Source of the DNA: Nitrospirota bacterium
GTDB lineage: Bacteria; Nitrospirota; Thermodesulfovibrionia; UBA6902
Assembly: GCA_016234115.1 (NCBI GenBank)
Contig: JACRHD010000064.1
Location: 1-38,796, forward strand
Direction of reading: 5' to 3'
DNA: 38,796 nucleotides
Shown: positions 1,886-30,760 of the stretch, in pieces
Layout of the letters: every line of letters begins with the position of its first letter
Numbering within the stretch: position 1 is the stretch's first letter
The notes under the pieces: generated by a model
Seen by the model: the letters and a program-made list of their open reading frames with translations, nothing else
Database searches by the model: none
Told to the model about the DNA's origin: nothing
Program-made: the position numbers and the translations under genes

Positions 1886-2980
1886 ATGAACAAGGGAGCG
1901 GACGTTGTCGACTTATGGCTGAAAACCCAGAAAGAATTTATGGGGAGCTGGCTGGAGGGGACCAGGAAATTGCAGGATGTCTTAAGTGATTTCATCTCAT
2001 CAGGGGAACAGGCCGCGGGCGGAAAGGGCTTTGATTTCCGGGACATCTACTCTTCATGGATGAACCCGTCCGCGAATTATTTTGCAGGACAGGCAAAGGC
2101 TGAAGATTTTAAGGTAGTTGAGGACACATTTCAAAAGCTGTTCAGCGACTCAAATGTTTACATGAAGCTTTTTAATATCTGGAAGCCTATCTTCAGCAAG
2201 ATGCAGGAGAAGACGCTGAGGCCGGACTCATACTGGGACATGATGGACCCTGCAAACTATATGAAGATACTCGAGGAAGTACTGGGCTTCTGCTCTCCCG
2301 CCGCAATGGCTGAATCCTACAAACAGGCGGCGAAGATCTTCAATATAGGTGTTGATTCGGCAAAGGAATTTTCGGGCCCGTGGTCCGAGGCGTTCCGGAA
2401 GAACTGGCAGACCATGCCCGGCTTTCTCGATGGGCATTTGAGCGATTCCATCCTGAAAAATTTCCATAGTATGTTCGGCGCCTATGACGCCACCTTCGGC
2501 AAGGCCCTGAATATGCCCGCCGTGTGGAAAGACAGGGAGAAAGTCGAACTTTGCCTGAAGAGCTTCGATGATCTGTCCTCTTACCTCGAAAAAAGCATCG
2601 AATACCAGTACAGGATGTACTCGACAGGGCTGAAAGCCATGGGACGCGTCATGGAAGCGATAGTCGGCAGGACCAACGGCGAGGGAAAGATCGGCGGCTT
2701 CAGCGAGTTTCTGGATATCTGGGTACAGGAAAATGAAAAGACCTTTCATGAAATGTTCAATACGGAAGAGTTTGCGAAATTTCAGGGTGAATATCTGGAT
2801 TCGGCCCTGAATGTCCGCAGGCACTACTTTAAATTGATGGAACTTCACCTGTACGATTTTCCGGTCGCGGTCCGCTCGGAAATGGACGACCTGTACAAGC
2901 AGGTTTACGAGCTGAAAAGACAGGTCAGGAGTCTTCAGAAAACCGTTAAGGACTTGCAGCCAAAGGAGGCCACAGCATGA
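1886..2980 (+). CDS. phaE: Class III PHA synthase subunit PhaE (364 aa)
   Basis: PhaE is the non-catalytic partner of PhaC in class III synthases. It activates and stabilises the catalytic subunit at the granule surface. The length fits the family (about 350-370). The protein is soluble, rich in Trp/Phe/Tyr and charged residues, with N-terminal VDLWLKTQKEFMGSW and a C-terminal coiled-coil-like stretch at about residues 325-358 (DLYKQVYELKRQVRSLQKT). The start has a clear ribosome binding site (GGAGG, 7 bases upstream). The stop overlaps the phaC start (ATGA, 2977-2980), indicating translational coupling and stoichiometric production. The identification rests on composition, length and the immediate phaC neighbour, since PhaE sequences are poorly conserved. 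Confidence 0.88.
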   Translation: MNKGADVVDLWLKTQKEFMGSWLEGTRKLQDVLSDFISSGEQAAGGKGFDFRDIYSSWMNPSANYFAGQAKAEDFKVVEDTFQKLFSDSNVYMKLFNIWKPIFSKMQEKTLRPDSYWDMMDPANYMKILEEVLGFCSPAAMAESYKQAAKIFNIGVDSAKEFSGPWSEAFRKNWQTMPGFLDGHLSDSILKNFHSMFGAYDATFGKALNMPAVWKDREKVELCLKSFDDLSSYLEKSIEYQYRMYSTGLKAMGRVMEAIVGRTNGEGKIGGFSEFLDIWVQENEKTFHEMFNTEEFAKFQGEYLDSALNVRRHYFKLMELHLYDFPVAVRSEMDDLYKQVYELKRQVRSLQKTVKDLQPKEATA

Positions 2981-4116
2981 ACGCGCCCTTTTTAACCTTA
3001 GACGCCAAGGGGATAATCAGTGAGGCTGGCAATTTTACCTCAAAATTCATTAAGACCATGGAGACGCTGTCGGAGATCGAAGAGATCGACGTCGGGACCG
3101 CCCCGAAAGAACTTGTTTTCCGTGAAGACAAGATAAAGCTTTATCATTACATTCCGACAGCGGAAATAAAATGCAGTGTGCCGGTGCTGATAACCTACGC
3201 CCTTGTCAACAGGTATTATATGCTCGATCTGCAGCCCGACAGGAGCCTGATAAGGAACCTGCAGCAGCTCGGTCTGGACCTTTATATTATCGACTGGGAT
3301 TATCCCACGAAGGTCGATATGTACCTGTCACTCGATGACTATATCAACGGTTATCTGAATGACTGCGTGGATTTTATACGGGAGAGCACGGGACACAGGA
3401 AGGTCAATCTGATGGGGATTTGCCAGGGCGGTACTTTTTCAACCGTCTATTCAGCCATATATCCCGGGAAGATAAAAAATCTGGTGACCCTCGTGACCCC
3501 GATTGATTTCGCCGGAAACGGGGGGCTTCTGAATCTCTGGGCCAGGTATTTCAATGCCGATACCCTTGCCGACACTTTCAAGGTCATCCCGGGAGATTTC
3601 CTCAATAACGGTTTTTTGATGATGATGCCTTTTACCCTGAACATCAGCAAGTACAAGGAGATGCTTGAATTTACCGACAGCAGGGAGAAGATGATGAATT
3701 TCCTCAGGATGGAGAAATGGATATTCGACAGCCCCGGACAGACCGGAGAATGTTACAGGCAGTTTATGAAAGATTTTTACCAGGAGAATAAACTCATTAA
3801 GGGTACTTTGAAGATCGGGGACAGGAAAGTCGACCTCAAGAATATAACCATGCCGCTTCTGAATGTCTATGCCAAGGCAGACCACCTGGTGCCCCCGAAC
3901 TCTACAAAGCCGCTCAACGAACTTGTCGGCAGCAAGGACAAGGAGCTCTATGAATTCAACGGCGGGCACATAGGGGTCTTCGTAGGCTCCAGGTCACAGA
4001 AGGAACTCGCGCCTGCCATCGCGCAGTGGCTGATAAAGAGGGCGCATGAAAACGCGACTGAAAGGGCAGGCGGAAAAACCGTTGAAAAGAAAAGGGCAGG
4101 AAGAAGGAAGAAGTAG
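2977..4116 (+). CDS. phaC: Class III PHA synthase catalytic subunit PhaC (379 aa)
   Basis: PhaC polymerises (R)-3-hydroxyacyl-CoA, typically 3-hydroxybutyryl-CoA, into polyester at the granule surface and releases CoA. It has an alpha/beta-hydrolase fold with the PHA-synthase lipase-like box GICQGG, placing the nucleophile at Cys149. Asp302 (AKADHLVPP) and His331 (NGGHIG) complete the triad. As I recall, the Allochromatium vinosum class III enzyme has the same residue numbers. The 379-residue length also fits class III rather than class I or II (about 560-590). YIIDWDYPTKVD is the conserved tryptophan-containing strand. The C-terminus ends in a basic tail (EKKRAGRRKK). It overlaps phaE by four bases. 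Confidence 0.96.
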   Translation: MNAPFLTLDAKGIISEAGNFTSKFIKTMETLSEIEEIDVGTAPKELVFREDKIKLYHYIPTAEIKCSVPVLITYALVNRYYMLDLQPDRSLIRNLQQLGLDLYIIDWDYPTKVDMYLSLDDYINGYLNDCVDFIRESTGHRKVNLMGICQGGTFSTVYSAIYPGKIKNLVTLVTPIDFAGNGGLLNLWARYFNADTLADTFKVIPGDFLNNGFLMMMPFTLNISKYKEMLEFTDSREKMMNFLRMEKWIFDSPGQTGECYRQFMKDFYQENKLIKGTLKIGDRKVDLKNITMPLLNVYAKADHLVPPNSTKPLNELVGSKDKELYEFNGGHIGVFVGSRSQKELAPAIAQWLIKRAHENATERAGGKTVEKKRAGRRKK

Positions 4117-27511: not shown

Positions 27512-27517
27512 AATAAA

Positions 27518-27543
27518 AAAAGGGGGGCAAAGCCCCCCTTTTC
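27518..27543. terminator. Bidirectional intrinsic terminator of glnA and the small Cys-rich gene
   Basis: AAAAGGGGGGC-AAA-GCCCCCCTTTT forms a strong GC hairpin flanked by A and T runs, so it can end transcription from both sides. It sits between glnA and the convergent 50-residue gene. Confidence 0.88.
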
Positions 27544-27694
27544 ATTCCGCTCCCACGACAACGTTCATTGCCGAGGCGGCGAATCTGTCATTTTCAATGC
27601 ATTTTTTCAGTACATTGCCTGTACAGCAAGGGTCGCACTTCTTACATCCCATACATATTTTCTTGATTGATTCACTAAGTTCTGTCAGCGTCAT
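27542..27694 (-). CDS. Small cysteine-rich protein (50 aa)
   Basis: The minus strand carries a complete frame: ATG at 27694-27692 with an excellent ribosome binding site (AAGGAGGAAGCA), then MTLTELSESIKKICMGCKKC, then DPCCTGNVLKKC, ending AMNVVVGAE before TGA. Six cysteines lie at 14, 17, 20, 23, 24 and 32 (CxxCxxCxxCC…C), suggesting a metal or Fe-S binding peptide. It ends at a strong terminator shared with glnA. I recognise no family. The strong start signal, the terminator and the concentrated cysteines argue for a genuine gene that length cut-offs would miss. Confidence 0.65.
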   Translation of the reverse strand: MTLTELSESIKKICMGCKKCDPCCTGNVLKKCIENDRFAASAMNVVVGAE

Positions 27695-28040: not shown

Positions 28041-28787
28041 TTGAAAAGCAGGAGACGATATAAGAGGTTTGATTGTCCGTTCGCGGTAAAGTTCAGGCCC
28101 ACTTACGGCGCCAAAGATTATTTCTCCGGATCGGCCATGGACCTGTCCTGTGAGGGACTCGGCATCAGCGCTCGTGATTTCAGGTTTATTCTCTATGAAA
28201 ACCTGGAGCTGGTCATCGGGCCCGATGGAGGCGGGGACACTGCTTCTGTCTTCGGGGACATTGTGTGGAAGAAACAGGAAGGAAAAGGGTGTCTGGCGGG
28301 AATCAATTTCAGGATGAAAGACAGGGGCATTCAGGAGGCGATTCTCGGAGGAATATTTGCCCGTTCAAATATCCCGGTCGATTACTTGTACTCTCCGGAC
28401 CCGGATTATTCGGCTCCTGATAAGACCGGCGGACAGCCTGCCGCGTATGCTCCCGTTTCTGCCCCGAAGGGCATTTACAGGCTGGGGCTAATCAGGAAGT
28501 ACGATCATAGCGGCGCAAAATGCACTGTGACCTTCAGGCTGCTGAGGGACATGGCCAGGAATGTCCGCAATGTCGCGATCGCCGGCGACTTTAATGACTG
28601 GGACCCTTCCCGGTCGTTTATGACGAGGCTTGAAAACGGGGACTTTGTAATATCGATTGAATTGGGGACTAACAGAGAGTACAGATTCAGGTATCTTATT
28701 GACGGCAAGCTTTGGGTCAATGATCCCTATGCCGACAAGTTTGTCCGCAATGGGCGCGGGACGAAAGATTCAGTTGTGATTGTATGA
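28041..28787 (+). CDS. PilZ-CBM48 fusion protein (248 aa)
   Basis: Residues 3-108 form a PilZ domain with both c-di-GMP motifs: RxxxR (RRYKR, 5-9) and DxSxxG (DLSCEG, 34-39). After a Pro/Ala linker (about 115-145), residues 160-248 form a CBM48/AMPK-beta-type glycogen-binding module (NVAIAGDFNDWDPS, then FRYLIDGKLWVNDPYAD). The start is TTG with GAGGAAGG upstream; no in-frame ATG fits. Binding of c-di-GMP and of an alpha-glucan is known for the separate families; the combined role, such as c-di-GMP control of glycogen or granule association, is inference. It has no signal peptide, so it is cytoplasmic. The stop lies at the start of a repeat B array. Confidence 0.85.
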   Translation: MKSRRRYKRFDCPFAVKFRPTYGAKDYFSGSAMDLSCEGLGISARDFRFILYENLELVIGPDGGGDTASVFGDIVWKKQEGKGCLAGINFRMKDRGIQEAILGGIFARSNIPVDYLYSPDPDYSAPDKTGGQPAAYAPVSAPKGIYRLGLIRKYDHSGAKCTVTFRLLRDMARNVRNVAIAGDFNDWDPSRSFMTRLENGDFVISIELGTNREYRFRYLIDGKLWVNDPYADKFVRNGRGTKDSVVIV

Positions 28788-29212: not shown

Positions 29213-30760
29213 ATGGCATTGACTGATTTCAATATTAAGATGGAGAATTTCAGGATGAAACATAAGGTCGCGGGACAGGAACTCCACCATGAAATATTCG
29301 GCTCTATCCTTGACAGAAGCGAAATGACCCCTTATCTCCTGTTAAGGGCCATGAATTACGGGTCCGCTTTAAGGCAGGCGACAAAAATGATGGGTAACCG
29401 GGGCTTTGATGCTTACGGCTGCGATGAGCTGGAGGCAGGCGAAAAAGAGCGGGCCACAGGGTATGTTGAACAGGCTTACCGGTATTGTCTTGATTACCTG
29501 TTACCTTTTCTAAAAGAGCAGTTGGAAAGGCTGAAGGCCCTGAATTCATCAAACCGTGTTATGTATATGGATTGTATGAAAGACGTCCGGGACATCGAGG
29601 CGACACTGCAGAGGCGCGATTTCAGGGAGATGGTATTTGAGGACCCGAGGCATCTGTTTCTGATGGCCTCTTCGCGAAAGTATCCCCGGGTCATGTACGG
29701 ATACAAAGGCATAAACTTCGACGTCCCCGGGGGGTGGCAGCAGATGGCCTGTTCCGTACTGAAGGTGGCCCATTTAATAAAGTCGATTGAAGAAGACAGC
29801 CAGGACATCAACGATTGCGCCCAGCTTGGGTTGTTCCTGCAGATGCAGGGGCAATGCCTCAATGACTTATACAATTATCAGTGGCATAAGCCGGGCCGTC
29901 TCCCTGAGAGAGAACCGGCACAGAGGGCCTTTGTCAAAATATCCACTTTTTTTCTCAAGCTCAAAGAATTTGTCAATTACGACACAGAGAGAGGATGCCT
30001 GGTCTTTGACAGCGGGGACGGAGTTGAAGTGGAGCTTGTCAGGATTGAGTCAAGGCTGAAGAGCCCGGAAAGTATGTTTACAAAGTTAGGCAAGAGCCTT
30101 GAAGCGGAAGCGAACGACATCAGGGACATCCTTGCAATCACTTTTATCCTCAAGAGCAGGAACGATACGTTAAAGCTGTTTCATGCCCTGCAGAAAAGGG
30201 GCGTCATCCTGCAGGACAACACACTTTCCTCGTCCATAACACAGACGCTGTTTGACGGTCCCGAAGACATGATGGAAGCCGTAAAAAGCCTCAATATCAG
30301 TATCTGCAGGAGTGAAGGCCGGGACGCGGTCGCCGCAGAAGATGAGCTGCTCGAAAATGCGAAAAGCTTCTACAAATCCCTCAGTGTCAATACGGCCAAT
30401 AACCCCCACTCGTCCTCGGGTCACAGGAAGTTCCAGTGCAAGATAAATTTTTGCGTGCCGCTTCACCGCAAGACCGGAACTAACGGGATAATGATGCCCG
30501 GGACGCCCGAGTTCGCCGGGAGACATTCGATTGATAAAATGACGGAACAGCACACGCTGTCTCTGGAACTGCGCATATCCGATGAGCAAAGCTGGCGTAT
30601 GTCGGAACAGAGAGGGGATTCCCACCATGACGCCTACAAGTTCCGCCAGTTAATATCGGTAATGAACAGGATATTCAAAAACAGGTTTCATCTGCCGGAG
30701 GCGAACTTCCCTCAACTGAGGAAAGACCAGGCGAAACTCTTCTCCGAACCGGACCTATAA
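29213..30760 (+). CDS. RelA/SpoT nucleotidyltransferase-like protein (515 aa)
   Basis: The C-terminal half shows the order of motifs of (p)ppGpp synthetases. RLKSPESMFTKL (281-292) matches the RxKxxxSxxxK substrate loop, NDIRDILAITFI (301-312) matches the D-xxGIR strand, GHRKFQCKINF (403-413) the GYRSIH region, and LELRISDEQSW (451-461) with E465 and H471…YK476 the vEiQirT…AE…H..YK segment. The catalytic Asp305 and Glu452 are kept, but the Arg of DxxGIR is Thr310 and the Tyr of GYR is His404. The N-terminal ~270 residues are helical and unknown; no HD hydrolase, TGS or ACT domain is seen. It could be a divergent synthetase or an inactive relative. It overlaps the convergent VOC gene by six bases. 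Confidence 0.65.
   Translation: MALTDFNIKMENFRMKHKVAGQELHHEIFGSILDRSEMTPYLLLRAMNYGSALRQATKMMGNRGFDAYGCDELEAGEKERATGYVEQAYRYCLDYLLPFLKEQLERLKALNSSNRVMYMDCMKDVRDIEATLQRRDFREMVFEDPRHLFLMASSRKYPRVMYGYKGINFDVPGGWQQMACSVLKVAHLIKSIEEDSQDINDCAQLGLFLQMQGQCLNDLYNYQWHKPGRLPEREPAQRAFVKISTFFLKLKEFVNYDTERGCLVFDSGDGVEVELVRIESRLKSPESMFTKLGKSLEAEANDIRDILAITFILKSRNDTLKLFHALQKRGVILQDNTLSSSITQTLFDGPEDMMEAVKSLNISICRSEGRDAVAAEDELLENAKSFYKSLSVNTANNPHSSSGHRKFQCKINFCVPLHRKTGTNGIMMPGTPEFAGRHSIDKMTEQHTLSLELRISDEQSWRMSEQRGDSHHDAYKFRQLISVMNRIFKNRFHLPEANFPQLRKDQAKLFSEPDL

Follow-up and report, generated by a model that had tools for sequence, protein, structure and literature searches.

In Streptomyces venezuelae, the glycogen debranching enzyme GlgX is controlled by cyclic di-guanosine monophosphate (c-di-GMP) (PMC9530166), and this is the only described example that we found in which a glycogen enzyme is a target of c-di-GMP. 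In GlgX the nucleotide-binding site is an ExR(X)6R motif on the surface of the enzyme itself, and PilZ, a domain family that recognises c-di-GMP elsewhere, is nowhere mentioned in that paper (PMC9530166). Here we describe a gene from a Nitrospirota bacterium, carried on a stretch of 38,796 nucleotides that was analysed as a whole (contig JACRHD010000064.1; hereafter the window), whose product joins an N-terminal PilZ domain to a C-terminal CBM48 module of the AMPK-beta type. The CBM48 module (Pfam CBM_48) is common to GlgX and to this fusion; however, GlgX is an enzyme with a GH13 debranching domain, whereas the fusion has PilZ and no enzyme.

Three further groups of described proteins share features with the fusion. 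The AMPK-beta/SNF1-beta subunits have the CBM48 fold and the same pair of stacking tryptophans, in a glucan-binding part that is regulatory rather than enzymatic, but they are eukaryotic kinase scaffolds without PilZ or c-di-GMP, and the fusion lacks their kinase-binding C-terminal region. PTST (PMC4339375) is a non-enzymatic adaptor in which a CBM48 domain with the same Trp pair carries a partner to glucan; unlike the fusion, it contacts its partner via a coiled coil and has no second-messenger sensor. For comparison with such an adaptor, the fusion has CBM48 plus PilZ and no catalytic match. On the signalling side, BcsA, Alg44, YcgR and MotI/YpfA (PMC12564702) couple an output domain to a PilZ domain that carries RxxxR and DxSxxG, as the fusion does. 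Two of them, BcsA and Alg44, likewise control a polysaccharide, but an exported one, whereas the predicted target of the fusion is internal alpha-glucan, and none of the PilZ effectors described in PMC12564702 carries CBM48. The parts of the fusion are known and their combination is new; it is apparently undescribed, since the openly licensed literature on PilZ with CBM48, glycogen or carbohydrate-binding modules yielded no account of it. It had also been unfamiliar to an earlier sequence-only reading of this DNA, which first pointed to the gene.

In the 248-residue protein, Pfam matched only PilZ and CBM48, with no GH13 or other catalytic domain, and the N-terminus leads directly into PilZ. 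By searching 101 relatives first and then the whole order, we found 34 fusions of full length. They come from 27 genomes, all within the same order: 25 of the 37 from the bacterium's own family and 2 of the 4 from a sister family, with several genomes carrying two or three. All 34 matched PilZ and CBM_48, and 33 matched AMPK1_CBM (E <= 0.001). The ratio of nonsynonymous to synonymous substitution rates (dN/dS), taken pairwise over seven close pairs, was 0.08-0.17 for the whole protein and about 0.02-0.20 for either half; therefore, both domains are maintained by purifying selection. A tree of the CBM half together with 45 separate CBM48 proteins set the fusions apart by a weakly supported branch (63/12; 66% of bootstrap trees), a result that fits a single fusion event but is not proof of one. 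When a profile of the family was run against 396 genomes of the phylum, full-length matches were confined to the own family and the other families gave CBM48-type matches only. Peptide patterns of the single protein, which reach close relatives only, gave no full-length match outside the order among 84,980 species genomes. As far as searched, the PilZ-CBM48 architecture is confined to one order, and fusions built from other subfamilies are possible elsewhere.

This conservation refutes an explanation to which we attach virtually no weight, namely that the gene arose through misassembly or through a chance joining of two neighbouring genes that is now decaying. Unfused genes do lie side by side in two genomes of genus g2, where two stand-alone PilZ genes come after a stand-alone CBM48 gene (L134:1532-2938, L135:2492-3782), but both genomes have a fusion elsewhere too, and 34 full-length fusions with low dN/dS come from 27 separately assembled genomes. 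The g2 arrangement is a mild hint that both functions associate even when unfused. As a general pattern it was rejected, being found in two related genomes only.

In the window protein, AMPK1_CBM (residues 176-228, E 5e-5) and CBM_48 (residues 172-231, E 2e-4) scored slightly under the curated cut-offs. The two bit scores were 22.0, with a cut-off of 22.4, and 23.9, with a cut-off of 26.8; matches among relatives were as good as E 3e-9 and 6e-9. Of the proteins with solved structures, AMPK-beta glycogen-binding domains come nearest in sequence. The CBM48 half was predicted with a local distance difference test score (pLDDT) of ~97, and its top match among solved structures was the AMPK-beta1 glycogen-binding domain (Z 12.0, root-mean-square deviation 1.4 over 80 residues), followed by branching enzymes (Z 9.8-11.2) and the plant phosphatase SEX4 (10.5). 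Both tryptophans of the stacking pair have their equivalents in the window protein, and the Lys126 position of AMPK-beta is Arg or Lys in 30 of 34 fusions. In plant PTST, mutation of the same Trp pair abolishes starch binding (PMC4339375). The residues thus retained point to alpha-glucan binding as the predicted property of this half.

The PilZ half scored 33.5 bits against a curated cut-off of 22.5, and its putative assignment rests on profiles and motifs. The Arg pair of RxxxR is present in all 34 fusions; in the second motif, [D/N]xSxxG as defined in PMC12564702, D/N and G are likewise present in 34/34 and S in 31/34, with the window protein having the textbook DxSxxG. Through these two motifs the domain is predicted to bind c-di-GMP. 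The sequence-only reading had named the open reading frame (ORF), its PilZ domain with both motifs and the AMPK-beta/CBM48 module, and on each of these points it held; the structure prediction that it proposed returned the CBM48 fold, superposing on AMPK-beta.

With no catalytic domain, the fusion would have to work as an adaptor. We therefore favour, as the simplest reading and somewhat more probable than not, a soluble cytoplasmic adaptor that sits on alpha-glucan and whose partner choice or glucan association shifts with c-di-GMP. The C-terminal CBM48 would dock onto glycogen or another internal alpha-glucan, and the N-terminal PilZ would bind c-di-GMP through RxxxR and [D/N]xSxxG. Binding may then alter the surface that a partner meets, or it may instead alter the affinity for glucan; the most plausible partner would be an enzyme of glycogen metabolism, for instance the branching enzyme GlgB. 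In either case, glycogen turnover or the protein coat of glycogen would track the level of c-di-GMP.

Several observations weigh against such an adaptor. The Asn150 position of AMPK-beta is Asp in 28 of 34 fusions, the Leu146 position is Arg in the window protein, and three fusions have neither the second Trp nor the motif Ser. A comparison of the neighbours of the 34 fusions gave no conserved neighbour or operon, and no glycogen gene lay close to the fusion gene in the window. Moreover, the separate CBM48 relatives sit away from glycogen genes, in a rubrerythrin/DUF255 operon. This is a conserved run of rubrerythrin-like genes, a CBM48 protein of ~130-160 residues, a DUF255/thioredoxin protein, a rubrerythrin and a 2-oxoacid oxidoreductase subunit (the last assigned by translation), exemplified by L117:4918-9508 on contig C51 of the own genome, with similar loci in relatives. 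It serves as a warning that the module need not act on glycogen enzymes as such, and the presence of a glucan-binding module within an oxygen-stress-like operon is unexplained. The conserved redox neighbours of these relatives, the missing glycogen neighbours of the fusion and some aligned glucan contacts unlike AMPK-beta would all suit a rather unlikely alternative, in which the beta-sandwich of the CBM48 half docks to protein and has lost glucan binding and the fusion is a PilZ effector with a protein partner, for example from the redox operon. A mere docking fold would not need the stacking Trp pair, however, which 31 of 34 fusions and 45/45 separate CBM48 proteins retain.

A last point against the adaptor concerns its sensor. 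The AlphaFold model of the PilZ half had pLDDT <50 over most of the domain and is uninformative on the six-stranded beta-barrel expected of the family, because no alignment with PilZ relatives was supplied. PilZ-like proteins without nucleotide binding exist, and the fusion might bind glycogen while its PilZ domain serves for constitutive interaction or dimerisation and senses no c-di-GMP. In favour of this stand the unusable model and the weak match to the sole solved relative found by sequence (B. subtilis YpfA, E 7e-4); against it, RxxxR has no exception and [D/N]xSxxG few across 34 divergent members, and the genome has 20 GGDEF matches. We consider a PilZ half blind to c-di-GMP improbable.

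The wider genome, which is 97% complete, supplies both sides of the proposed link. Glycogen genes, which the sequence-only reading had suggested looking for, are present: GlgP adjoining a pyrophosphate-dependent phosphofructokinase, a second alpha-glucan phosphorylase, GlgX, MalQ, a GH57 protein, a GlgA-like GT5 protein and two GlgB, each with its own CBM_48. One glgB (L131:4691-6670) is divergent from a gene for an HDOD-GGDEF protein with an intact GGEEF (L131:6849-8363), a putative diguanylate cyclase that is among the 20 GGDEF matches. The same divergent pair was found at 13 of the 30 glgB loci examined, one per genome and in four genera (the others being L193, L194, L198-L200, L203-L205, L214, L217, L218 and L221), so that a c-di-GMP synthesis gene and a glycogen gene are neighbours in the family carrying the fusion. 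Common descent by itself could also explain why the pair has stayed together. A test for co-occurrence of the fusion with the pair gave 12/13 versus 13/24 genomes of the family (Fisher p 0.027), which we do not use as proof because related genomes are non-independent and contig ends truncate loci. Tentatively, the two may form a control module confined to the order, a possibility to which we give limited credence: the cyclase beside glgB would make c-di-GMP, and PilZ-CBM48 on the glycogen particle would read the signal and switch branching or breakdown, with a logic resembling that of AMPK-beta or PTST. The sequence-only reading had proposed c-di-GMP control of a glycogen-related enzyme; the HDOD-GGDEF/glgB pair backs its link between c-di-GMP and glycogen, whereas the surroundings of the fusion itself, with no adjacent glycogen gene and no conserved neighbours, lent the enzyme target no support.

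The order-wide retention of a c-di-GMP sensor joined to a glycogen-binding module suggests that signalling is linked directly to carbon storage. If true, this would be a second, independent c-di-GMP route to internal carbon storage after GlgX in Streptomyces, in which a simple sensor-plus-anchor protein without an enzyme does the job, and it would hint at the way in which members of the order couple lifestyle decisions to reserves. The protein is also small and testable, with two domains and predicted loss-of-function residues in each half.

Table 1. Features of the fusion gene and its upstream flank, in window coordinates
Feature	Position	Strand	Basis or remark
PilZ-CBM48 fusion gene, 248 aa	28041..28787	+	TTG start, TGA stop
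PilZ domain, residues 4-101	28050..28343	+	Pfam PF07238, E 5.4e-8
RxxxR motif, residues 5-9 (RRYKR; R5, R9)	28053..28067	+	sequence
DxSxxG motif, residues 34-39 (DLSCEG; D34, S36, G39)	28140..28157	+	sequence
Linker, ~residues 113-147	28377..28481	+	length and sequence vary among relatives (alignment); low pLDDT at 106-142
CBM48 / AMPK-beta-type glycogen-binding domain, residues 148-248	28482..28784	+	Pfam, model, Z 12.0 to 1z0m_B
W187 codon, equivalent of AMPK-beta Trp100	28599..28601	+	alignment; 34/34 fusions
W225 codon, equivalent of AMPK-beta Trp133	28713..28715	+	alignment; 31/34 fusions
Terminator-like stem after glnA	27517..27543		consensus scan only

The TTG start is closely preceded on its 5' side by GGAAGG, which is Shine-Dalgarno-like, and in the alignment the relatives use the same start site, mostly with ATG, one codon upstream of this TTG. 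Upstream lies a nitrogen cluster of P-II, a class-I glutamine amidotransferase and GlnA (by Pfam) with two amt-like transporters (by translation). The terminator-like stem after glnA suggests that the fusion gene is outside this glutamine-synthetase cluster, and the gene appears to stand alone. An Rfam scan of the window gave no family over cut-off, hence no known c-di-GMP riboswitch. Elsewhere in the window, a polyhydroxyalkanoate (PHA) synthase-like ORF (2977-4116) was recognised by translation, in agreement with the earlier suggestion that this cell makes PHA.

The same PilZ subtype is found, too, in longer proteins that have a putative transmembrane stretch (L188:1144-2388; similar at L184, L185, L186, L187, L189 and L191); one of these has a C-terminal SPOR match (E 2.5e-4), and the ends of the others are similar by eye. 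In the interval from glnA to the fusion gene, a 50-residue cysteine-rich ORF of the opposite strand (MGCKKCDPCCTGN..., window 27542-27694, minus strand) possibly encodes a small metal- or redox-binding peptide. About 425 bases 3' of the fusion gene begins a 515-residue ORF (window 29213-30760, plus strand), residues 280-329 of which match RelA_SpoT below threshold (E 0.002); its product is possibly a divergent protein related to guanosine tetra- and pentaphosphate, (p)ppGpp.
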